64,000 nt of DNA from Bacillota bacterium (GTDB lineage Bacteria; Bacillota; Clostridia; Oscillospirales; Acutalibacteraceae), in the NCBI GenBank assembly GCA_021769885.1, contig JAETSA010000001.1:165963-229962 (forward strand), written 5' to 3'. Below the pieces are notes generated by a model, which saw only the letters and a list, made by a program, of their open reading frames with translations, was not told the DNA's origin and did no database searches. The position numbers and the translations under genes were made by a program. Positions 49,643 to 62,269 of this stretch are shown here, piece after piece (positions within the stretch are counted from its first letter, which is position 1; every line of letters starts with the position of its first letter).

Positions 49643-49676
49643 ATTGAAATACACAATTATGTTTGTTATAATAATA
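49643..49676 (+). promoter_or_regulatory. Promoter of the disrupted tRNA-Leu gene
   Basis: TTGAAA - 17 nt - TATAAT immediately upstream of the tRNA 5' half. Confidence 0.65.
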
Positions 49677-49683
49677 CCCACAC

Positions 49684-49718
49684 GCGGATATGGTGGAATT
49701 GGCAGACACGCCAGATTT
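49684..49718 (+). pseudogene. 5' half of a disrupted tRNA-Leu(UAG) gene
   Basis: GCGGATATGGTGGAATTGGCAGACACGCCAGATTT. Acceptor strand GCGGATA pairs with TATCCGC at 62259-62265; CCAGA pairs with TCTGG at 62225-62229. Confidence 0.93.
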
Positions 49719-49789
49719 CGCTGATGATACCTCGGTGTAAAATTTAATAATGAAAAAATCAGACTCAAACAAGCCTGATTTATATAAAT

Positions 49790-49874
49790 GCAGGTATGGT
49801 GAAACTGGCAAACACGCTGGATTTAGGATCCAGTGGAGCGATCCTTGCAGGTTCAAGTCCTGTTACCTGCACCA
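49790..49874 (+). tRNA. tRNA-Leu(UAG), complete, carried by the element
   Basis: GCAGGTATGGTGAAACTGGCAAACACGCTGGATTTAGGATCCAGTGGAGCGATCCTTGCAGGTTCAAGTCCTGTTACCTGCACCA; acceptor GCAGGTA/TACCTGC, anticodon TAG at 49824-49826. Confidence 0.95.
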
Positions 49875-49881
49875 AACAATA

Positions 49882-49922
49882 TAAATCCGAACCCTTTCCT
49901 TGTTGGAGATGGGTTTGGATTT
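49882..49922 (+). terminator. Hairpin terminator after tRNA-Leu
   Basis: aaatccgaaccc tttccttgttggagat gggtttggattt. Confidence 0.65.
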
Positions 49923-49993
49923 GCTGTTATTTGTATTAATCGCATTGTAAGAAATACGATTTAATTTTTGCAGACGATATTACCTAAATATAA

Positions 49994-50689
49994 ATGGAGG
50001 TCTGTATGGACAAAAAGCAACTAATAACTGAGCAAGATAAATTTAAAGATCTTTCAAGAAATATTGTAGTAGCAGCCAGTAGCATTATACCTGGAATAGG
50101 TGGTGTTTTGTCGCTCTTTTTAGATAAATATCTGCCCAATTCAATAGAGAAAAGGCGGGATGATTTTTTGCTTTCTCTTTCTAATGATTTGGAACAGTTT
50201 CCAACACACATTGTTGAAAAACTTGCTGTAAGTGAAGAATATCATTCTCTGATATTAAAAGTTTTTAAATCAATAACTCAAGAAGAAAAAGAAATAAAGA
50301 TTACAGCTTTTAGAAACATTCTAATAAATGCTGCACTATCTGACCAAAATATTGATGAACAAGAATTTTACATAAAATTACTGACAGATCTCACGACTGA
50401 TCAAGTTAAAATACTTCATCTTTTTTATTTGAGGGATAATAAACATGAGATCAGTTTTACAAATATTTATAAATACATTTCTGATAATTGGAGCAAAGTG
50501 GATGAATCATACCGATTTGCTTTAATTACAGAATTGATAAGATATGGATTGATATCTGGTGCCCAGAAGTATCAAAAGAAAAAAGGTGAAGGACATCATC
50601 TATCTCCTTTTGGAGAAAGATTTATTTATTATATTTTTCAACCGTGTGAAACTAATGAGTCAATAGAAACATTAAACAATGATGAATAG
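49994..50689 (+). CDS. Hypothetical protein with an N-terminal Gly-rich hydrophobic segment
   Basis: 231 aa; RNIVVAASSIIPGIGGVLSLFLDKYLPNSIEKRRDDFLLSLSNDLEQ; good RBS; no recognised family. Confidence 0.75.
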   Translation: MEVCMDKKQLITEQDKFKDLSRNIVVAASSIIPGIGGVLSLFLDKYLPNSIEKRRDDFLLSLSNDLEQFPTHIVEKLAVSEEYHSLILKVFKSITQEEKEIKITAFRNILINAALSDQNIDEQEFYIKLLTDLTTDQVKILHLFYLRDNKHEISFTNIYKYISDNWSKVDESYRFALITELIRYGLISGAQKYQKKKGEGHHLSPFGERFIYYIFQPCETNESIETLNNDE

Positions 50690-50701
50690 AATGATCTATC
50701 C

Positions 50702-50749
50702 TAATCACAATCAAGGCAGGAAGTGAAAACTTCCTGCCTTGATTGTGAT
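50702..50749 (+). terminator. Long perfect hairpin terminator
   Basis: aatcacaatcaaggcaggaag tgaaaa cttcctgccttgattgtgatt, a 21-bp perfect stem. Confidence 0.8.
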
Positions 50750-51022
50750 TTAAGTCATCCTAGCGGCTCTCTGTGCTTTTAATTTAGCTTATTGCCTCTC
50801 CATGTCATATTCCTTTCTGCCGGCTTCGCTCTCGAAAAAGGTCTGAATATTGGGGAGAAATCATCTTTGCAATACTTCTAATTCGTGTTTTGAAATATTT
50901 CTTTTTGTCGCATAAGCCAACACAGCGATTATTCTGTTGCCTGTCATTTTCCATAACATATTATTGTTATCTTGGCTTTCTTGAGTGTATAACAAGTTTA
51001 AAATTTGTATTTTTTCTGTCTG

Positions 51023-51051
51023 TTGACAAATGTATACATTTGTGATATTAT
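51023..51051 (+). promoter_or_regulatory. Promoter with an 18-bp perfect palindromic operator in the spacer
   Basis: TTGACA - 17 nt - TATTAT; ACAAATGTATACATTTGT (51026-51043) is a perfect palindrome. Confidence 0.8.
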
Positions 51052-51079
51052 GTTTACAGATTTAAGGCGGTGATAGTCT

Positions 51080-51262
51080 ATGAAGGAAAAACTTGTAATT
51101 GAAAAAAAGAACTATAAAGGAGAAACAGCAGTTATTTCTGCACGTATTCCTAATGATTTAATAGCAAAAATTGACGAAATTGCGTCCATTACGGGTAGAA
51201 ACCGTAATGAGATTATCCAACTGTGCTTAGAATTTGCAGTTGATAATTTGGAAATAAAATAA
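51080..51262 (+). CDS. Ribbon-helix-helix (CopG-like) regulator
   Basis: 60 aa; AVISARIPNDLIAKIDEIASITGRNRNEIIQLCLEFAVDNL. Confidence 0.8.
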   Translation: MKEKLVIEKKNYKGETAVISARIPNDLIAKIDEIASITGRNRNEIIQLCLEFAVDNLEIK

Positions 51263-51277
51263 AGGATGGAATAAGAG

Positions 51278-52129
51278 ATGAATAAACTGATATGTGATAT
51301 TTGCGGCGGTGCAATCGTTGTGCAGGCAGGTGGAAAATACGGAATTTGTGACAGCTGCGGAGCGAACTATACCCTTGACCGTATGCGTGAAATCGCAAGC
51401 GGTATTAAAGTGAGCCAAACTGGCTCAAAGGAAGATGTAGAACAGTGGAAAGCCTTGCTCAATACATACCTTACTGCTTTTGATTGGGAAGCGGCAGAAT
51501 CAACAGTGAAAAAAATCCTTGAAGCAGTTCCCACCGACGAATATTCATTAGATGTTTATAAAAAGCTTCAAAGCTGGAAAGACTATGTCATTAAAGAAGG
51601 AACGATGTTGGAATATAAAGGTATTTCAAATGCTATTGATATACCTTATGGAGTAAAATGTTTAGATTTTTATGCCATAAATTTGGCTTATGTAAAAGGT
51701 AAAATTACAATAACAATACCTGAAACTGTAATAAAAATTAAAGATTTTGCATTTAGCCATAGATACCTTGATTTACAAGAAATTTTTATACCAAATAGTG
51801 TGCAGGAAATAGATGAAAGAGTATTTTATGTTTCTGATCCGTACAGGAATTACTGGCCTAAAATATATCTACCAGAACGTTTTATGGATTGCAAATTCAT
51901 TATGAAAGAGGGCTTTGACACAGGACCACTTGATTTTTATAATAAAGATGATTTTATTTTTTACAGCGGAGAGCAAACCTTAGAAGGCGTAAGGGAAATT
52001 GAAATAAAAAATAAAAAAGAGCAAAGCGCAAACCGCCGTGCCTTAGGCGTTTGCCAACATTGCGGAGGCGTATTTAAGGGTTTCTTTAATCCGAGATGCA
52101 CTTCTTGCGGGAAAGAAAAAGATTATTAA
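51278..52129 (+). CDS. Protein with N- and C-terminal zinc ribbons and an LRR/BspA-like middle
   Basis: MNKLICDICGGAIVVQAGGKYGICDSCGANY...ITITIPETVIKIKDFAFSHRYLDLQEIFIPNSVQEID...CQHCGGVFKGFFNPRCTSCGK. Confidence 0.75.
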   Translation: MNKLICDICGGAIVVQAGGKYGICDSCGANYTLDRMREIASGIKVSQTGSKEDVEQWKALLNTYLTAFDWEAAESTVKKILEAVPTDEYSLDVYKKLQSWKDYVIKEGTMLEYKGISNAIDIPYGVKCLDFYAINLAYVKGKITITIPETVIKIKDFAFSHRYLDLQEIFIPNSVQEIDERVFYVSDPYRNYWPKIYLPERFMDCKFIMKEGFDTGPLDFYNKDDFIFYSGEQTLEGVREIEIKNKKEQSANRRALGVCQHCGGVFKGFFNPRCTSCGKEKDY

Positions 52130-52140
52130 GGAGAATTAAA

Positions 52141-53034
52141 ATGGGGAAGTTAGTTTGTGAAATCTGCGGCGGTTCTTTGATAATGAATGCAGACAATGTG
52201 GCTGAATGTGAAAGCTGCGGTATGAAATATGCAAAGGAAAAAGTCGCTTCTATGGTCAAAATTGACGGTGCTGTTGAAATAACTCAAGGTGAAGCTGAAA
52301 AAGAGCGTCTGCTCAAAAACGCGGAAACCTTTGTGAACTTGGGTAAGCATATAGAAGCAGAAGATTTGTGCAAAAAAATTGTTGATGAATATCCTGATGA
52401 TTACCGTGGCTGGTACTTACGCTTCAAGAATGTTGTTTTGGCAATGGATTGCAATATAGATTTATATGGACACAATTATAATACCTTTATGCTAAAAGAA
52501 GCGAATATGTACCTCGAAACATCATTAAAATTAGCTCCTGATAAAACTTCCTTAGAAAAAGAAGCAATTTTATTTTGGCAGGACGCTTTACAGAAAGGAA
52601 ATGCAGATTTAGGTCAGTTTCATAATAGGTGTAGTGTTTTAGGTGATGTTTTGGAACTTAAAGATAATCATATCGTAAAAAAATTTGTAAGTGAATGCGA
52701 CCTTGTTATATGTAATTTGGTAAAGCAATTAAACGATTTTCCAAATAAGACAGCATTATTAAACCTATTAGATTTTCAATCAGTCGGTAATTGGGAAGAA
52801 TGGGGCGACGAACTTGTATCAATACAATCTTTTTATTGCCGTTTAGGAAATGAAATTTTGGTGAATGGAATTGTAATGCATAAGGAATTTGACGGTTTAA
52901 CTTTTTGGGGAGGAAAAACTAAATATAAGTATGTAGAAATTCCGAGAAATGATATGTATTCTCTTCACATTAATTCATATAACGATTTAAAAAAACTTTC
53001 AGAAACGGTTAATCAAATAGTGAATGAGGTTTAA
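52141..53034 (+). CDS. N-terminal zinc-ribbon protein with TPR-like helical region
   Basis: MGKLVCEICGGSLIMNADNVAECESCGMKYAKEKV, homologous to the previous protein's N-terminus; ETFVNLGKHIEAEDLCKKIVDEYPDDYRGWYLRF. Confidence 0.75.
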   Translation: MGKLVCEICGGSLIMNADNVAECESCGMKYAKEKVASMVKIDGAVEITQGEAEKERLLKNAETFVNLGKHIEAEDLCKKIVDEYPDDYRGWYLRFKNVVLAMDCNIDLYGHNYNTFMLKEANMYLETSLKLAPDKTSLEKEAILFWQDALQKGNADLGQFHNRCSVLGDVLELKDNHIVKKFVSECDLVICNLVKQLNDFPNKTALLNLLDFQSVGNWEEWGDELVSIQSFYCRLGNEILVNGIVMHKEFDGLTFWGGKTKYKYVEIPRNDMYSLHINSYNDLKKLSETVNQIVNEV

Positions 53035-53036
53035 TT

Positions 53037-54104
53037 ATGTCAATTTTAAATATTATAAAATACGAAGGTAATAACGACACTTTTATATGGAAGCACCCTT
53101 GTGAGGATTTCAACACACTTTCACAACTGATTGTACACGAATCGCAGGAAGCGATTTTATTTAAAAACGGACAGGCTCTCGATTTGTTCGGTCCTGGTAA
53201 ATACACATTAACCTCAAAAAATATCCCCTTGCTTTCCAAGCTTATCAATTTGCCTTTTGGCGGAGAATCACCGTTTCACTGCGAAGTTTATTTCATCAAC
53301 AAAGCGATGCCTTTAGATATGAAATGGGGTACACAAAGCAGAATCCAGGTACTTGACCCCCGTTTTAACATATTGCTTCATGCAGGTGCAAGCGGCGGAA
53401 TGGGTGTGCAAATAGACAATTCACGCAAATTCCTAACAAAGCTTATCGGCACGGCAAATGCATTTGATAAAGAAAGCTTAATTACATATTTCCGTGAAAT
53501 GATAATCACAAGAGTCAAAACCTATTTGACAAAAGCAATGTCAGATATTTCATTTATCACGATAAATGCGCATTTAGATGAAATGTCAACCGCTATGCAG
53601 GGAATTTTAAATGAGGATATATCTGAATTCGGCGTTAAGCTTGTAAAATTCTTTGTTTCTACGATTCAGCTTGAAGAAAAAGACTATGAACAGGTACAGC
53701 AGGCTCTTTCAAGAGTATCAAGCCGTTCAATTGAGGGTTATAATTGGGTGGACGAGCAAATCTCCGATGTTATGAAACGCTATGCTTCAAATGAAGGCAA
53801 CCAAAACAATGTGGGCGGTATGGCGGCACAAATCCCGCTTGCAATGGCGTTTGGCAATATGCTTCGCGGCACGGTTGCTCCGTTGACAGGTGTTGAGTTT
53901 TCTAACACACCGCAAGCTTTGCAAAAAGAGGAACCCCACGGATTTTGCACCAAATGCGGTGCGCCGTTGAAAGAGAATGCAGAATTTTGCGCAAAGTGCG
54001 GGACACCAATTAAAGTTACACAGAATGTCTGTATGCATTGCGGGACAGCTTTAGATGAGGACGATTTATTTTGTGCACATTGCGGAAAGAAACGTGGTGA
54101 ATAA
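53037..54104 (+). CDS. SPFH/Band-7 domain protein with C-terminal double zinc ribbon (YdjI-like)
   Basis: LIVHESQEAILFKNGQALDLFGPGKYTL...MIITRVKTYLTKAMSDISFITINAHLDEMSTAMQGILNEDISEFGVKLVKFFVSTIQLEE; C-terminal CTKCGAPLKENAEFCAKCGTPIKVTQNVCMHCGTALDEDDLFCAHCG. Confidence 0.85.
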   Translation: MSILNIIKYEGNNDTFIWKHPCEDFNTLSQLIVHESQEAILFKNGQALDLFGPGKYTLTSKNIPLLSKLINLPFGGESPFHCEVYFINKAMPLDMKWGTQSRIQVLDPRFNILLHAGASGGMGVQIDNSRKFLTKLIGTANAFDKESLITYFREMIITRVKTYLTKAMSDISFITINAHLDEMSTAMQGILNEDISEFGVKLVKFFVSTIQLEEKDYEQVQQALSRVSSRSIEGYNWVDEQISDVMKRYASNEGNQNNVGGMAAQIPLAMAFGNMLRGTVAPLTGVEFSNTPQALQKEEPHGFCTKCGAPLKENAEFCAKCGTPIKVTQNVCMHCGTALDEDDLFCAHCGKKRGE

Positions 54105-54106
54105 TT

Positions 54107-54412
54107 ATGTTGAAGAGAAATAAACTGATTGAGGATAACCGTCAAGAAATTCGGAACTTTTGCTCAAATGTAAATGATTTGATTGCTAAAACAAAATATT
54201 TACCGATGTCTGCAAGGCCAGAAGCACAGACGGCACTAACGAATTTGCATGATTATATTGCTTATTTAGACCCGACACAAGAGGATATCATACAAATCGT
54301 ACATCGGACATATCCTGTGATTTCTCAGCTTATCAAGGAATTAGAACACCTAATTGATATTGAAAGCGATACGGCAGAAAGCATCACATCAATTATAAGG
54401 AATTATATTTAA
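54107..54412 (+). CDS. Small helical hypothetical protein
   Basis: 101 aa ORF 3 nt after the SPFH gene; same strand and composition. Confidence 0.65.
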   Translation: MLKRNKLIEDNRQEIRNFCSNVNDLIAKTKYLPMSARPEAQTALTNLHDYIAYLDPTQEDIIQIVHRTYPVISQLIKELEHLIDIESDTAESITSIIRNYI

Positions 54413-54552
54413 TGTGAGTGATAAAATGGGGACGAAATAGTACCCAGAGTAATCGATGCCCGGTATTCTTCCGATAATCAGCATAAAGAATTGATTGACG
54501 AGTAACTGAGAGAATGTATAGCAGTTGCTTCGTATTATACTTTGAGGAAAAT

Positions 54553-55575
54553 ATGAAAACATACGCATTTGCAACGAATAGAATAACAAATGATACAAAT
54601 TTTATGTGCGCATTTGATGCAATAAGACTAAAAGAAAAGGATTATAAAGGTTATAAACTTTTAGATTTTTATTATAAAATAAGTGAAGAAAAGTATCCAG
54701 TATATCCTAGGTTTAATTCATCAACGCAAAGAGCATATTTTGTATTTTATAATAGACCGGATGGGATAAAGGCTGATGGAGATGGTGAAACATTAACACA
54801 TTATGTCGCAAAAACCGCCTTATTGAATCTATCGAAATTGCATTTAGTAAATGATAAGAAAGAAATTGATTTATGTATTAGTGTTAATAAAGAAAAAAGT
54901 TGTAATGAAAAAAGATTTGATTTTGAAGATACATTCTATGCAGATGTATATTATGAATTAGATAAACATCAAGAGTATTATTACAAATGGTATGGAATTT
55001 TAGTCTTAGAGGTTGAAATAACGCACAAAGTTGATAACAATAAACGTTTCTTATTTGAAAAAAATAATGTTCCGATTTTTGAGGTGAAAATAAGCAAGAA
55101 AATGATAGATGAATTTGGTTTAGAAACTTCTGGTGCTAAAATTTCTGAAGGCAGAATAGAAAAAGCTATAGTAAATATGACAAAAATATTTGAAAAAAAT
55201 ATTTATGGTGATTTTATTTCAAATCCATCTTCCAAGGAGTATGAATTGATGAATAAATATAAAAACGAGATAAAGCAGTTCAAAGATAGAAGAGACCGAG
55301 AAGAAAAAGACTATTTAGTTGCTCGCTCTAAAAGAATTGAAGAAGAAAGATTATTGAATGAATACCAATTACATAACAATTATTATGAATCAATAATTCA
55401 AGAAAACGAGGATGTTAAAAATATCAATGAAAAGTTATCACAAGAACTTGATATTGCAAAAGAAAAAAATATTAAGCTGTCTAATGAAAATAAACGATTT
55501 AATGAATTAAATTATGCTTTTAAACATTTTCTTGTACTTTTGTGGAACAAGATAATAATGAAAATGAAAAAATAA
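54553..55575 (+). CDS. Hypothetical protein with a putative CoiA-like nuclease motif and C-terminal coiled coil
   Basis: DTFYADVYYELDKHQEYYYKWYGILVLEVEITHKVDNNKRFLFEKNNVPIFEVKISK, similar to the motif in 61149-62192. The ORF-track start at 54514 is probably too long; MKTYAFATNR at 54553 is likelier. Confidence 0.65.
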   Translation: MKTYAFATNRITNDTNFMCAFDAIRLKEKDYKGYKLLDFYYKISEEKYPVYPRFNSSTQRAYFVFYNRPDGIKADGDGETLTHYVAKTALLNLSKLHLVNDKKEIDLCISVNKEKSCNEKRFDFEDTFYADVYYELDKHQEYYYKWYGILVLEVEITHKVDNNKRFLFEKNNVPIFEVKISKKMIDEFGLETSGAKISEGRIEKAIVNMTKIFEKNIYGDFISNPSSKEYELMNKYKNEIKQFKDRRDREEKDYLVARSKRIEEERLLNEYQLHNNYYESIIQENEDVKNINEKLSQELDIAKEKNIKLSNENKRFNELNYAFKHFLVLLWNKIIMKMKK

Positions 55576-55587
55576 ACAACATAACAA

Positions 55588-55618
55588 AATAGCAAGCTTT
55601 TTATGGCTTGCTATTTTA
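55588..55618. terminator. Bidirectional terminator hairpin
   Basis: aaaatagcaagc tttttatg gcttgctatttt between convergent genes. Confidence 0.75.
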
Positions 55619-55640
55619 CTTTTACCGTATTGTTTTAGAA

Positions 55641-57242
55641 TCAAGATACTAAATTCAGTATTTGAATTTCATTAAAATTAAATGTGTGTTCTCTAAATTT
55701 ACCATTAAGAGCAATGCTTATATCTAATTTGCCGTCTTTTTCTGATATGATTATTTTATCAATTAACATTCTTAAATCCGAATCAGATATTGTACCCTCA
55801 TCAATAATTCTGTTAAATATTTCAATACTGCTTGATAGTTCGGCTTTTCGCTTTTTGATTGTATTATCTATATTTTCAAGTTCGGCGATTCGATTTGATA
55901 ATGTTTCAATATCGCTTTCGCATTTCTCAAGCATTTGTGTATAAATATCAGCCCTTTCTTTATCTCTCAACCTTTCAAGCAGAATCTCTTGCTGATCTGA
56001 TTTTCTTTGAGACAATTGTTCATTCAACAACTTAATGCTATTCTGACTATGGCTTTTATTTTGTTTCCAAACATTTAACTTTACATCAATCTGTTTGAAT
56101 TTTTCTATTGCCTGTTCTCTGACATTTAACAGTTCTGCATAGATTATCTCATCAAGTACAGTTTCATTGATCCTATGAGGTGTGCAATGCTCTTTGCCAT
56201 ATCTGTGATAACTGTTGCAAACATATTCAACTCTATCAGGCTTGTCTTTCCACTTACGTATTTTGCACGAAAATGATGAACCGCAGTCAGCACATTTAAT
56301 TAATCCCGTATATCTATGATACGGTTTACTGAATGTCGCCCTTACATTATCTTTTTTCTTGCTTTCAAGCAGCATCTGAACTTTATTAAAATCCTCTTTG
56401 CTGACGATTGCGGGAACTGCATCATCGTGTCTGATTTGCTCATCTGCAGAATAAGTCTTTCTCCGCCTGTTAATTTTATCAAGCATATATTTATGATTTA
56501 CCAGATTGCCACAATAAAATTCATTAGTCAGCACCCTTTTTACTGCTGTGCCGTTCCATAAATATCTTGTTGTAATTTCAGGTTTGTTATATCCCTGATG
56601 TTTATTAAGATATTTTAATTGGTAATATGCCGGAGTTCTATAACCCTCTTCATTTAATTTGTGAGCAATATTTTTAAGCCCATATCCGTCAAGATACATT
56701 TGAAATATTCTTCTGACAATATTTGCAGGCTCTTCCATTATTAGAATTTCACCAGTGTTCTTGTCTTTGAAATATCCCATAGGCGGTATCATTACAAGCC
56801 CTTCTTTTTGCTTTTGAAGAAATCCTGCACGAACCTTTCGGCTGATATCACGGGCATACATGTCGTTGAACAAACCTTTGAAGCCAATAATCAAATCATC
56901 ATTTTCATTGCTTGTATCAAGATTTTCGGTGACAGATAGCACCTTAACATCATTCTCACGAAGGTAGTCAATGAATAGTGCCGTTTGCGTTTTGTGTCTG
57001 CCAAGTCTTGACAGATCCTTAACGATAACTGCGTCAATCTTTTTTCTTTCCACAGTTTCATAAATTTTGCTTATGCCTTCACGATTAAAGTGCATACCGC
57101 TGACATTGTCATCAAAAGATTCACCAACGATATTAAAACCGTTTTTATCAGCAAATTCTCTGATGATGTTCTGTTGGTTTGTCAATGAATTTAACTCATC
57201 ATCTTCATCTCTTGAGAGTCGCGCATATAACCATACTCGCAT
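55641..57242 (-). CDS. Large serine recombinase (resolvase + recombinase + zinc beta-ribbon)
   Basis: MRVWLYARLSRDEDDELNSLTNQQNIIREFADKNGF (catalytic Ser); VIVKDLSRLGRHKTQT; YTGLIKCADCGSSFSCKIRKWKDKPDRVEYVCNSYHRYGKEHCTPHRI; coiled-coil C-terminus. Start 57242 after GAAAGGGG. Confidence 0.95.
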   Translation of the reverse strand: MRVWLYARLSRDEDDELNSLTNQQNIIREFADKNGFNIVGESFDDNVSGMHFNREGISKIYETVERKKIDAVIVKDLSRLGRHKTQTALFIDYLRENDVKVLSVTENLDTSNENDDLIIGFKGLFNDMYARDISRKVRAGFLQKQKEGLVMIPPMGYFKDKNTGEILIMEEPANIVRRIFQMYLDGYGLKNIAHKLNEEGYRTPAYYQLKYLNKHQGYNKPEITTRYLWNGTAVKRVLTNEFYCGNLVNHKYMLDKINRRRKTYSADEQIRHDDAVPAIVSKEDFNKVQMLLESKKKDNVRATFSKPYHRYTGLIKCADCGSSFSCKIRKWKDKPDRVEYVCNSYHRYGKEHCTPHRINETVLDEIIYAELLNVREQAIEKFKQIDVKLNVWKQNKSHSQNSIKLLNEQLSQRKSDQQEILLERLRDKERADIYTQMLEKCESDIETLSNRIAELENIDNTIKKRKAELSSSIEIFNRIIDEGTISDSDLRMLIDKIIISEKDGKLDISIALNGKFREHTFNFNEIQILNLVS

Positions 57243-57271
57243 AATTTCACCCCTTTCGCAAGCACACATTA

Positions 57272-57448
57272 TCACAACTTCTTTTCAAAGTCCAGCTCAT
57301 TTGGAATATTACTTTTACAAACTAAAATACCATTATCGAACACATAATTTTTAATAATTGATTCTAAAAATTTATTAAATTCTTCTTGTTTTCCGTTGTA
57401 GGAAATATTAACACTGTTAATGTTATTTTTAATTTGTTTTGCTGACAT
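57272..57448 (-). CDS. Possible 58-aa small protein just upstream of the serine recombinase
   Basis: Reverse strand MSAKQIKNNINSVNISYNGKQEEFNKFLESIIKNYVFDNGILVCKSNIPNELDFEKKL*; below the ORF-track length cut-off; weak RBS. Confidence 0.4.
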   Translation of the reverse strand: MSAKQIKNNINSVNISYNGKQEEFNKFLESIIKNYVFDNGILVCKSNIPNELDFEKKL

Positions 57449-57571
57449 ATGGCAGCAACTCTAACTATGATTCCCCCCATTCCTAAATAAAATATTTAAT
57501 GTTTATTAAAACGATTAACCTTGCTGTGGTATAATATAATTTACAAAGCGATTTTTCGTATTCTTTTTTTG

Positions 57572-58009
57572 TCATTCAAAGTCCTCCGTATAATTTTTAT
57601 CTTGTGAATTTCCGTCAAGCAATTTTTTCAAATCAATGTTACCGCGTGTCTTTGCCATTCTAACACCCGCTTGTTTTCTTACAAATTCTAACTCGTGCGG
57701 TGACCATTCGGTGTCCTGATAAGCAATGATTTGGCAAAGCATATCAAGAATTACGGCGTAGCGGTACAGTCCTTTTGACATGCGAGATGCGATGGGACGA
57801 ACCTCGTTCTGAATTGCTTTTACTAATTCTTTCGTAATAAACGGGCTGTGATTTTCACAAATCAAGCGGTCAATATACGTTTCAAGTGCCTTTGTAACGA
57901 ACTGAGAAAAAGATGACACATCTGCTTCACCGAACAGAATTTCGCACCTTTTTGTCAATTCTTCATCGAGATATACGGTTTTTCTTATTGCGTTATTTGT
58001 TTCATTCAT
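57572..58009 (-). CDS. RHH-domain protein, possible mobilisation accessory
   Basis: 145 aa; NAIRKTVYLDEELTKRCEILFGEADVSSFSQFVTKALETYIDRL. Confidence 0.6.
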   Translation of the reverse strand: MNETNNAIRKTVYLDEELTKRCEILFGEADVSSFSQFVTKALETYIDRLICENHSPFITKELVKAIQNEVRPIASRMSKGLYRYAVILDMLCQIIAYQDTEWSPHELEFVRKQAGVRMAKTRGNIDLKKLLDGNSQDKNYTEDFE

Positions 58010-58267
58010 TTTTGATTTCTCCTTATTGTTGTAGTAGCGTGCCGAGTCTCACACCTAAAATACGGCGGAACAGTCGGCGATTTCGCTTTATTCGCACACA
58101 TTCCGTGTGTGATATTCGGTTTGCGACACCCCTGTGCAATTTACACAAGCGGTGTCAGGAAATGGCTTAACATAGCGGTTTTCCTCGGTCGGCTCTGCCG
58201 TCCGATGTGACCCGGGTCGGTGTGACGGCACCGTCCCTTTCTCCTGCTTTATTTTCGACCCTGTATT

Positions 58268-58462
58268 TTAGGTGGAAATTTTTGCCTGTTCGTCAATATG
58301 CACAGGGCGAAAATTATTTGCGTTGCCCTGTTTAAGAGCCGAAAGTAAAATATAGTCCGTCATGCTCAAGTGCTTGTCATTAGCACGGCTTTGAAGCATT
58401 TTCTTTTCTGCCGGTGTCAGCCTGATTGTCAGGCTTTGCGTTCGGTTTCGCTTGTATTTCAC
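58268..58462 (-). CDS. MobC-like plasmid mobilisation protein
   Basis: 64 aa; RTQSLTIRLTPAEKKMLQSRANDKHLSMTDYILLSALKQG. Confidence 0.65.
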   Translation of the reverse strand: MKYKRNRTQSLTIRLTPAEKKMLQSRANDKHLSMTDYILLSALKQGNANNFRPVHIDEQAKIST

Positions 58463-59613
58463 ATTTGCCTCACGTCGCCGAATTTCGCCGTTTCATTCTG
58501 CTGTCGGGTACTTTCCGCAGTTTTTGCCGAAAGAGCCACACGTTCGCTTACAGGGGCGCAAGTGACGGCAGGAACGCAGGATTTAGCACCCAATATCTTT
58601 ACGTCACTTACGGCACTTTCGTCACGGTCAGAAGAATAAGAAATATCCACAAGCCGTTGACCGTTGCTTCTGCGGTTTGTAAATTGCACGCCCTGTTCTT
58701 CAAGCGAATACCGCCAGCGGTTCATCATCTGTTTAAGACTTTTTGCAGACAGTTTTTTACCGTAGTACGAATTAAAAAGTTCTGTGAATTCGCTGTTCGT
58801 TCCGCTAAAGGATTTTTGCATTTTCATAAATTCAATCAGTGCTACCATTTCATCGGGCAGTATCAATTGCGGATTTTCAAGGCTGTCTGACACAAGACGC
58901 CAAACACAATCTTCCTTTGACAACCGCATCTCCATTTCACGGTATTCAATATCTCTGCCTGTGCAAACAAGCGTTGCCGTATCTGCGTTCCGTTTGCTTT
59001 TGTCAAGCACAAAAATTGCATCCATCGCTCCGCTGATTCCTGTTGTACCGGAAATTTTATTAAGCGGGTCGCCGTCACCCTGTTTTCGCAAATGATGCAC
59101 AAGCAGAATAGAAATTTCCAATTCATCTGCAAGCTGTTTCATCTGCCGTACATCATCGTAATCGTTTGCGTAGGATGTGTCGGTGTTGCTTGCACGGACA
59201 ATTTGAAAAGTATCAATCGCAACCAATACCGTATCGGGATGCTCTGAAACAAAATTTCGTATCTGCTCGCACAGCCCGTCTGCCAGCGCACCTGCGGCAG
59301 TTGCGAAGTATGCATTCTCAGGTACTTCATCTGTGAGCATACAAAGTCTTTGCTGTATTCTGTTCAATGGGTCTTCCAAACAGAGGTACAGCGTTGTGCC
59401 TTTTTTGGTGGGCAGATTCCATATTGCATCGCCTTTTGCAATGCGGACGCACAAATCAAGCACCAACCAGGATTTTCCGATTTTCGGTGCGCCGCCGAGT
59501 ATTGAGATACCCTGTGGCAAAAGTGTTTCAACACAAAACTTCGTCGGCGGAAGTTTCATGTCCATCAGTGTTTCACCGTCTACCACGGTGAGCATATTTT
59601 TTCTTTCGTTCAT
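58459..59613 (-). CDS. RecA-like/RepA-type AAA ATPase (replicative helicase-like)
   Basis: GISILGGAPKIGKSWLVLDLCVRIAKGDAIWNLPTKKGTTLYLCLEDPLNRIQQRL; VAIDTFQIVRASNTDTSYANDYDDVRQMKQLADELEISILLVHHLRKQGDGDPLNKISGTTGISGAMDAIFVL. Confidence 0.88.
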   Translation of the reverse strand: MNERKNMLTVVDGETLMDMKLPPTKFCVETLLPQGISILGGAPKIGKSWLVLDLCVRIAKGDAIWNLPTKKGTTLYLCLEDPLNRIQQRLCMLTDEVPENAYFATAAGALADGLCEQIRNFVSEHPDTVLVAIDTFQIVRASNTDTSYANDYDDVRQMKQLADELEISILLVHHLRKQGDGDPLNKISGTTGISGAMDAIFVLDKSKRNADTATLVCTGRDIEYREMEMRLSKEDCVWRLVSDSLENPQLILPDEMVALIEFMKMQKSFSGTNSEFTELFNSYYGKKLSAKSLKQMMNRWRYSLEEQGVQFTNRRSNGQRLVDISYSSDRDESAVSDVKILGAKSCVPAVTCAPVSERVALSAKTAESTRQQNETAKFGDVRQM

Positions 59614-60027
59614 ATAATTTCACTCCTTTATTCTTTTTGATTGATGATTTCAGAACAATCATATACCACTCCTACCTTTCAAATATCAAAATTCAGCAGT
59701 GTCAGTTTCCGTGCAAGAGGAAGTTTGCATTTCCCCTGATTGCCGATTTTGTCTGTACATCTGTTTTGTTCCTGCGCTCTTTTCCTGAACGCGTATTTCA
59801 CAGCTGCCTTCTTCGCTCGTCCGTCCTTTCGGGAGCAATCCGCCCCTTCCTCCTGAACACATCAACAATATGATGCTGTCATCGCAAAGTGCACACTGTG
59901 TATCGTCACAGCAGACTATTCAATTTTACAGGCTTTTCTTTTTCTGCCTGTTCTGGTACAATAATACTGTAATTTTTAATTCTTCTAAATATCAAAGTGT
60001 TAATGCTGAAAATCACACAAAAGCACT

Positions 60028-61032
60028 TTGAGACAAGGCGGTGAAAATACTTTGCAGAATATATGCGGTTTGTATGTAGAGATAAATAAGGGCGGAACTA
60101 TAAAAAGAAATCTCACCGTAAAAAGCGGTGAGACAATAAAATTGGAACGTACTACGGTCAATGATGAAATCATAGCGTTTTCCGAATTAAATTTTAAATA
60201 CTACGCAGAGTTATTGGAGCATATTGAGAATATGTGCGAGGACTCGTACGTTGAAGTGACGGACGGCGACTTCGGAGAAGCAGGCATAGATGTTGATGCT
60301 TATGCAGAAATACTGAAAACGGTTCATAAACTAATTGAGGCTTTGGAAGAGTCAAATCCTCTGCACGGGACACTCCTGCGAACGCTTTTAGAAGACCAAA
60401 TCCCGCCCGATGACGGCTCGGCAATGTATTTGATAAACAGCGAGGCAAAGATTACCGACTGCTTATCATCGGTAATGCGACTGCAATTCCTTATCAACGA
60501 CATACTGTATGATTTGCGAAGCGGAGCATCGCTTGATATGGAGCAGAAATACAGTATTTTTAAGACTGCTGAGTTTACCCAAATACAAATACTTGACAAA
60601 AGAATTACCAGTCAATACCGTTTTCGCTCGCTGATAGATTACTATATTTTTCTGATGATGCGGTTTATTGAAAATCAGCCGAGCGTTACCCTTTGCCAAT
60701 GCTGCGGAAAATATTTTATCCCCAAAACAAAACGGACAACCCTGTACTGTGACAGAATTATCCGTGATAATAAGACCTGTAAACAAATTGCTCCTGTATT
60801 AAAGCATAAGCGTGACGCCGCCCAAGATTCGGTTATACAAACCTTCGACAGGACAAAGAAAAAGATGTACAAACGCTTTGAGCGGACGAATGACTTTTCC
60901 AACGCAACCGCAAACAGCCTTTCTCTTACGCAATATTACGATTGGCTGAGCAGAGCTGAACGGGCAAGGAAAGCATATCTTGCCGGCAGAATGTCAGCAG
61001 AAGAAGCACTTGAAATTATTACAGTAGAATAA
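60028..61032 (+). CDS. DUF6076-type mobile-element protein with zinc knuckle
   Basis: CQCCGKYFIPKTKRTTLYCDRIIRDNKTCKQIAPVLKHKRDAAQDSVIQTFDRTKKKMYKRFERTNDFS. Family name from memory. Confidence 0.65.
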   Translation: MRQGGENTLQNICGLYVEINKGGTIKRNLTVKSGETIKLERTTVNDEIIAFSELNFKYYAELLEHIENMCEDSYVEVTDGDFGEAGIDVDAYAEILKTVHKLIEALEESNPLHGTLLRTLLEDQIPPDDGSAMYLINSEAKITDCLSSVMRLQFLINDILYDLRSGASLDMEQKYSIFKTAEFTQIQILDKRITSQYRFRSLIDYYIFLMMRFIENQPSVTLCQCCGKYFIPKTKRTTLYCDRIIRDNKTCKQIAPVLKHKRDAAQDSVIQTFDRTKKKMYKRFERTNDFSNATANSLSLTQYYDWLSRAERARKAYLAGRMSAEEALEIITVE

Positions 61033-61148
61033 AAACATGCCTCGAACAAGACCGATTTTAGTTGATTTGAAATGCTTATTAATATTGAAGTTACTTTTTA
61101 TTTGAATTATAATTTTTAAATAATATATATATTTTGTAAGGAGACATT

Positions 61149-62192
61149 ATGAATTCAAATAATTTAATTTATGCTTTAAAAGATGGAGTACTTACACATA
61201 TTTCTAATGTTGAAAGCGGATTAAAATGCGGATGTATTTGTCCCGGATGTGGTGAAGAGTTAATTGCTAAAAAAGGTAATAAAATGACACATCATTTTGC
61301 TCATAAAGCAAATAGCGAATGCTTGAGCGGCTATCAAACATCGTTGCATTTATTAGCTAAAGATATTCTGTTGGAAGAAAAAAGAATATTATTACCAAAA
61401 GTAAAAATTCGTTTTAGCGATCACGGCGGCTCATATAAAGAAGTATTGATTTCCAATGAAACTTTTATTGAAATAGATAATGTTGTTCTTGAGAAAAAGC
61501 AAGGCGAAATAATACCAGATGTTATTGCTTATTGCGGAGATAAAAAATTATATATTGAAATTTATGTTACTCATAAAATCGATGATAACAAAAAGATAAA
61601 AATTGCTGAAGAAGATATATCTACTATAGAAATCGATTTGAGTGAAATTGATAGATACATTTCAAAAGAAATGCTAAAAGATATTCTTCTTGAGGGAACA
61701 AAACAGAAGCACTGGATATATAATTCCATTGAAAATCAATGGTATAAAAAATTTATTAATTTTTCCGATTTTATTGAAATTAATGGAAGCCGAATTAAGA
61801 ATTGTCCAATAAAAGCAAGGGTAGATAAATACGGAAATCCTTACGCAGTTTTCATCAGGGATTGCATGTACTGCAATTATTGCGTTGATGTTATTGATAG
61901 TGAAGATGGTTTTACACAAGGCATTAAATGCACAGGAAAGCAAAGATTGTCAGAGATATCCGATTTTAATTTAACTTTAGCAGAAAGAATTACTGATAGC
62001 AATGAAAAATTATATACAATACGGATGGAAAATTTGTGCAATGGTTATTGCCCGTTTTGTCAAGTGGAATTAGTTGAAAGAGTAGGAAAATATGGAACTT
62101 TTTATGCTTGTTCAAACTCCACATACTGTAACTTTACATTTTCAATAGATGAAGAAACCGGTGAATTAAAATTAAGATATCCATTGATATAA
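61149..62192 (+). CDS. CoiA-like putative nuclease with N-terminal CxxC finger and C-terminal topoisomerase-type zinc finger
   Basis: CICPGCGEELIAKKGNKMTHHFAHKANSEC; IIPDVIAYCGDKKLYIEIYVTHKIDDNKKI; CPFCQVELVERVGKYGTFYACSNSTYCNFTFS. Confidence 0.8.
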   Translation: MNSNNLIYALKDGVLTHISNVESGLKCGCICPGCGEELIAKKGNKMTHHFAHKANSECLSGYQTSLHLLAKDILLEEKRILLPKVKIRFSDHGGSYKEVLISNETFIEIDNVVLEKKQGEIIPDVIAYCGDKKLYIEIYVTHKIDDNKKIKIAEEDISTIEIDLSEIDRYISKEMLKDILLEGTKQKHWIYNSIENQWYKKFINFSDFIEINGSRIKNCPIKARVDKYGNPYAVFIRDCMYCNYCVDVIDSEDGFTQGIKCTGKQRLSEISDFNLTLAERITDSNEKLYTIRMENLCNGYCPFCQVELVERVGKYGTFYACSNSTYCNFTFSIDEETGELKLRYPLI

Positions 62193-62218
62193 TTTGCTGC
62201 ACCAAGGTAACGCTAGCA

Positions 62219-62269
62219 TTAGGATCTGGTGCGTAATGCGTGCAGGTTCAAGTCCTGTTATCCGCACCA
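62219..62269 (+). pseudogene. 3' half of the disrupted tRNA-Leu(UAG) gene
   Basis: TTAGGATCTGGTGCGTAATGCGTGCAGGTTCAAGTCCTGTTATCCGCACCA; completes the 5' half at 49684-49718. Confidence 0.93.

Follow-up and report, generated by a model that had tools for sequence, protein, structure and literature searches.

The 64,000-nucleotide stretch of contig JAETSA010000001.1 analysed here (the window, whose positions serve as coordinates throughout) contains a 12.5-kb element that splits a host transfer RNA (tRNA) gene, tRNA-Leu(UAG), in its anticodon loop and carries a second tRNA-Leu(UAG) of its own. The 5′ half of the host gene was located on the forward strand at 49684..49718 (GCGGATATGG...CCAGATTT) and ended in the core dinucleotide TT (49717-49718). 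The 3′ half, on the same strand at 62219..62269 (TTAGGATCTGG...TATCCGCACCA), began with that core. When both halves were fused and the TT was counted once, they formed an 84-nt tRNA-Leu(UAG) whose acceptor and anticodon stems were both complete according to ARAGORN; run on the window itself, the program scored neither half as a gene. An earlier reading of the same sequence by a model (the original prediction) had proposed this junction, and its coordinates proved exact, as did the element size of 12.5 kb (span ~49717-62220). The carried gene (49790..49874, forward strand) started 71 bp inside the left end of the element, was complete with its CCA and lacked a recognisable promoter of its own. 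Its anticodon stem was CTGGA/TCCAG, compared with CCAGA/TCTGG in the host gene, and the ARAGORN call agreed with the predicted distinct, complete tRNA bearing the same UAG anticodon.

Of 39 congeneric genomes, G005, a sister genome, was found to have the corresponding tRNA-Leu(UAG) gene uninterrupted. The left flank of the window was collinear with G005 over 2.9 kb (73.6% identity), the alignment stopped exactly at the crossover and, past it, resumed in the 3′ half with 53 out of 53 positions identical. The intact tRNA from G005 showed 100% identity to the rejoined window tRNA, including its 3′ half, and 82% to the carried one; to the right of the tRNA there was no conservation between both genomes. 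The related empty site thus joined in the way that had been anticipated. Given the intact, collinear locus in G005 and the recurrence of the arrangement in relatives described below, the split-tRNA geometry is not a product of chance.

The element encodes a large serine integrase of 544 amino acids (55641..57275, reverse strand) with the domain layout Resolvase, Recombinase and zinc ribbon (PF00239, PF07508 and PF13408, all over the cut-off), in agreement with the earlier claim that its mode of insertion departs from the standard tyrosine-integrase one. For large serine integrases a short dyad attP is expected. The attP deduced from the element ends, CACCAAGG-TAACGCTAGCA-TT-CGCTGATGATA-CCTCGGTG, was a dyad centred on the TT with equal 11-bp spacers (CACCAAGG-N11-TT-N11-CCTCGGTG). 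Its P arm (CACCAAGG-TAACGCTAGCA) was placed at attR (62200..62218, forward strand) with exact spacing to the core and its dyad partner, the P′ arm (CGCTGATGATA-CCTCGGTG), at attL (49719..49737, forward strand), with a motif that was kept in relatives. The TT was the sole overlap of attP with attB. This 2-bp core corresponded to tRNA positions 33-34 (T33-N34) and included the wobble base. A 58-amino-acid open reading frame (ORF) overlapping the integrase start (57272..57448, reverse strand), whose position just ahead of that gene is conserved in relatives, is a candidate directionality factor or regulator. Searches of IMG/VR viral contigs and phage records yielded no relatives of the integrase. 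No free attP or circular form lay near a tRNA among 33 IMG/VR pattern hits, and none was present in 396 family genomes.

The host genome, with a completeness of 97.6%, contained 40 detected tRNAs, all of which were read. The leucine anticodons were UAA, CAG, CAA and GAG, together with a UAG that came solely from the element, so the genome-wide count proposed with the original prediction left the carried copy as the only intact tRNA-Leu(UAG) gene. In standard decoding CUA is read by the UAG anticodon only, and this codon accounted for 23 out of 11,990 codons in the host ORFs of the window; the host would depend on the carried tRNA. When 16 element-bearing genomes were searched by pattern for intact tRNA-Leu genes of the CUN type, the carried gene was the sole intact copy of its own isoacceptor in 14 of them.

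Seventeen integrase relatives with at least 51% identity (range 51-85%) were present in named genomes, most of them beside a tRNA-Leu. A family search added five matching genomes, partly with the same loci, and one further relative came from the closed record of a cultured strain, Subdoligranulum variabile TSDC17.2. In that record, which is labelled plasmid 4 (OY725838.1), positions 16507-55841 hold a 39-kb element of the clade in the tRNA-Leu(CAG) of S. variabile. Excluding an integrase fragment of 354 bp at a contig end (L081, G003), an intact tRNA-Leu(UAG/CAG) was found at the attL end in 18 out of 21 distinct integrase loci, window included. The order 5′ half, P′ arm (CCTCGGTG-like) and whole tRNA-Leu was seen at 14 loci, the window among them, which answers the suggestion to look for other elements with a tRNA beside attL. 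The core followed the target, TT for UAG and TC for CAG, and the carried anticodon equalled the target anticodon in every case. When the relatives' genomes were scanned for the P arm followed by the core and AGG, 15 sites were retrieved, 11 of them with a tRNA-Leu 3′ half next; the reversed control pattern gave 2 sites. Six targets could be rebuilt from paired halves and all six folded as tRNA-Leu with the expected anticodon. An integrase tree rooted on a distant outgroup proved unreliable; the tree rebuilt without that outgroup required four UAG/CAG changes, three of which were forced by well-supported branches. As a control, eight distant serine recombinases of the genus (~30% identity) were considered, and only one adjoined a tRNA-Leu, which was intact and had its own promoter.

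The promoter of the host tRNA-Leu gene (TTGAAA-17 bp-TATAAT, 49644..49672, forward strand) matched 11 out of 12 consensus positions, and no promoter-like site was present in the window from the 5′ half to the carried tRNA. To score other loci, a promoter was defined by at least 10 out of 12 consensus positions, a spacing of 16-17 bp and a location no more than 400 bp upstream of the outermost 5′ half. Such a promoter preceded the outermost 5′ half in all 15 arrangements (the 14 loci and L080, an element with unrelated machinery presented below), and none was found between that half and the carried tRNA in 13 out of 15. Because the promoters were always upstream and most linkers were promoter-free, transcription of the carried tRNA would be expected to start at the host tRNA promoter. 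The original prediction was right in that the gene is destroyed and a divergent tRNA with the same anticodon is supplied. Its suggestion of a supply in trans did not stand, since the carried gene lies downstream of the host promoter and shows no recognisable one of its own; the replacement would act in cis, by promoter capture. Immediately upstream of the carried tRNA, six loci (L062, L065, L066, L068, L071 and L072) also presented a conserved two-hairpin leader (GYGGATTAAGC...GCTCCRCC-TCGG...CCGTGTAAAA...) that showed compensatory changes and perhaps has a role in RNA processing.

Further evidence came from loci with more than one insertion. In G445 (L076), two 5′ halves, GCGGATA and GCGGTTA, preceded the whole tRNA, and two 3′ halves with P arms lay 9.9 kb apart, the inner one ending in TAACCGC and the outer one in TATCCGC. 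GCGGATA paired with the outer TATCCGC and GCGGTTA with the inner TAACCGC. Judged by these pairings, this locus is a nest in which a younger element has inserted into the tRNA carried by an older one, whose integrase was decayed and located behind its own displaced 3′ half. Since both pairs of halves match, the carried tRNA appears to be a renewable target. G438 presented two 5′ halves and one 3′ half that fitted the outer one, as well as a same-clade element in a CAG site ~7 kb away. Local duplication is an alternative to nesting at L065 and L066, given the close similarity of their repeated 5′ halves. The 3′ halves of G433, G434 and G436 paired poorly with the visible 5′ halves, which suggests more layers or recombination.

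Scars were observed at other loci. The tRNA-Leu(CAG) genes of sister species at L049, L051, L052, L054 and L056 showed fossil 5′-half-like scars and/or repeated leader units between the promoter and the tRNA, and no close relative of the window integrase was detected in these genomes; other sister loci, L048 and L028, were clean. The scarred CAG loci suggest earlier elements of which nothing but the tRNA has remained. At L049, L054, L063, L068 and L137, the 5′ scars showed a break at GGCAG, after which came a hairpin repeat (..CAGCGGTCAAAATTT...GGGCACCGCAAGAGT) that may be a miniature inverted-repeat transposable element or a further element type that uses the tRNA D-loop. Near the integrase of L070 and L073, the carried tRNA was reduced to its 3′ end and fused to unrelated sequence; these remnants were possibly hit by yet another element.

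A comparable arrangement was found with different machinery. In G019, of the same genus, the anticodon loop of this tRNA-Leu(UAG) gene is interrupted by a 4.7-kb element (L080; G019:C3, 2384-7145), which likewise brings a complete tRNA-Leu(UAG) that directly follows the 5′ half. It encodes a CRESS-type Rep (PF02407) together with two tyrosine recombinases, and its overlap is AGATTTAGGAT; the arrangement is alike and the recombination machinery is unrelated to that of the window element. Searches of viral contigs and of 300 family genomes gave no relatives of the L080 integrase, and for this reason the case for convergence consists of one locus.

Altogether, these results point to the following scheme. 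The serine integrase would recombine attP with an attB that the single tRNA-Leu(UAG) gene provides in its anticodon loop, keeping the host promoter and the 5′ half at attL and shifting the 3′ half by 12.5 kb, to attR. The promoterless tRNA-Leu with the same anticodon, just behind attP, would thereby fall under the host tRNA promoter, and the host would survive because the tRNA of the element, once expressed and processed, takes over. As the carried tRNA holds a new attB, the site would be regenerated and further elements could nest in it; relatives would follow the same scheme at the TC core of tRNA-Leu(CAG). We consider that this explanation as a whole, with insertion, promoter capture and site renewal, is very probably correct. 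Several observations weigh against it. Most relatives come from metagenome-assembled contigs, several of which miss one end; a clear 5′ half was absent from L061, L062 and L075, and the carried tRNA was broken in L070 and L073. A second intact copy of the target isoacceptor was present in G431 (UAG) and G438 (CAG), and a second UAG gene may have been missed in the incomplete host genome. In addition, no circular form or free attP was found that would support present mobility.

Four other explanations were weighed. In the first, the tRNA at 49790 would be a native second tRNA-Leu(UAG) and the element would have disrupted a redundant copy. Consistent with this, the carried and disrupted tRNAs were nearly or fully identical in S. 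variabile and L136, and G034 and G035 had a resident tRNA that was 89% like the carried one. However, this was the closest match, and no element-free genome contained the exact tRNA, whose native occurrence in strains lacking the element had been named beforehand as a check. Element-free sister genomes mostly had a single UAG gene that followed its promoter directly. The carried tRNA always lay inward of the P′ arm at attL, within the element, and its anticodon always equalled that of the target. In addition, a 97.7% identical relative of the carried tRNA accompanied an 85% identical integrase, as if both moved together. A native second copy is therefore very unlikely. The carried tRNA could also be cargo that brings another benefit, such as resistance to anticodon nucleases or decoding of the element's own codons, with an incidental location at attL. 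The different anticodon stems of both tRNAs would fit this idea, and CUA was about twice as common in element ORFs as in host ORFs (4.1 versus 1.9 per 1000, from a small sample). Nevertheless, the attL position, the lack of a promoter and the isoacceptor match were all conserved across the clade, and the carried tRNA was the same as the host tRNA in some elements, which makes incidental cargo very unlikely. It is exceedingly improbable that the element is a switch whose excision turns the host tRNA on: excision would restore that gene perfectly, but a replacement with the same anticodon is already behind the same promoter, leaving nothing obvious to regulate, and an older element had a decayed integrase and yet its site was reused. 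Finally, an ordinary Campbell-type island, in which a tRNA fragment in attP restores the gene according to the known rule for tRNA-targeting islands (PMC4383910), has next to no probability and is refuted by the sequence at both element ends, where the 5′ half enters the P′ arm and the P arm precedes the 3′ half so that both stay broken, and by the whole tRNA having its own acceptor and anticodon stems.

The remaining genes of the element were also annotated. On the forward strand, these were cargo ORFs of 231 amino acids (49994..50689, no family match), 283 amino acids (51278..52129, with zinc-ribbon-like cysteines and a weak LRR_5 match below the Pfam cut-off) and 312 amino acids (52096..53034, no Pfam match), an SPFH/band-7 protein with a double zinc ribbon (53037..54104; PF13421, 1.9e-42, and PF13240) and two ORFs of 101 and 353 amino acids (54107..55575), followed further to the right by cargo ORFs with a DUF6076 domain (60028..61032; PF19553) and with a CoiA-like N-terminus and a topoisomerase-type zinc ribbon (61149..62192; PF25164 and PF01396). 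The reverse strand encoded a 145-amino-acid ORF without a convincing family match (57572..58009), a NikA/MobC-like mobilization accessory protein (58268..58462; PF21983, 8e-10) and a RepA-like AAA ATPase (58459..59613; PF13481, 4e-23), which several relatives have too. No relaxase was found among ten element ORFs tested with Pfam, and no oriT search was made. Virion or packaging genes were lacking among the ORFs tested with Pfam and NCBIfam, as opposed to what a prophage would contain, and the annotation of the cargo for defence gave nothing convincing.

Large serine integrases are known from Tn4451/Tn5397-like elements, phiC31, Bxb1 and SCCmec Ccr. The window element shares with them the Resolvase, Recombinase and zinc ribbon layout, the short dyad attP and the 2-bp core, and differs in targeting a tRNA anticodon loop and in bringing a replacement for the destroyed gene. 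Its kind of target is shared with the tyrosine-integrase islands in tRNA and tmRNA genes (Islander/TIGER; PMC4383910), which insert site-specifically into tRNA genes, often in the anticodon loop, leave the host with a working tRNA, renew their target and are known to form tandem arrays. In contrast to these islands, the window element has a serine integrase with a 2-bp core, discards both halves of the target and, instead of a completing fragment, places a whole tRNA behind a captured host promoter. Tycheposons, as described via PMC10872708, likewise contain a complete tRNA gene at one of their borders, but with a XerD-type tyrosine recombinase, which the window element does not have. Integrative and mobilizable elements of Streptococcus (PMC7168690) also target tRNA-Leu and show accretion, although with tyrosine integrases and at the tRNA 3′ end. 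Within the open-licence literature, neither a serine integrase that uses tRNA-Leu nor a complete replacement tRNA placed behind a captured promoter was found to be described, though either may have been reported before in other papers.

According to the 2014 Islander paper, serine integrases were not known to target tRNA genes (PMC4383910), a stated rule that the present family contradicts. The family adds a solution to the use of an essential gene as a landing site, namely a replacement behind a captured promoter instead of a repair. It also provides serine integrases for which the attB is highly conserved and has the wobble base in its core dinucleotide, which would allow direct experiments on core specificity, and the element of the cultured S. 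variabile would be useful for bench work. More broadly, we somewhat favour the view that CUN-leucine tRNA genes are renewable landing sites that elements repeatedly seize, with the isoacceptor set by the two core base pairs, the carried tRNA matched to it and at least three switches between isoacceptors. Many present tRNA-Leu genes in these Clostridia would then derive from past elements, as the stacked 5′ halves and fossil leaders suggest, and the same arrangement would have evolved independently in a tyrosine-recombinase element. These findings imply that core tRNA genes may be exchanged horizontally, leaving a readable stack of past insertions.

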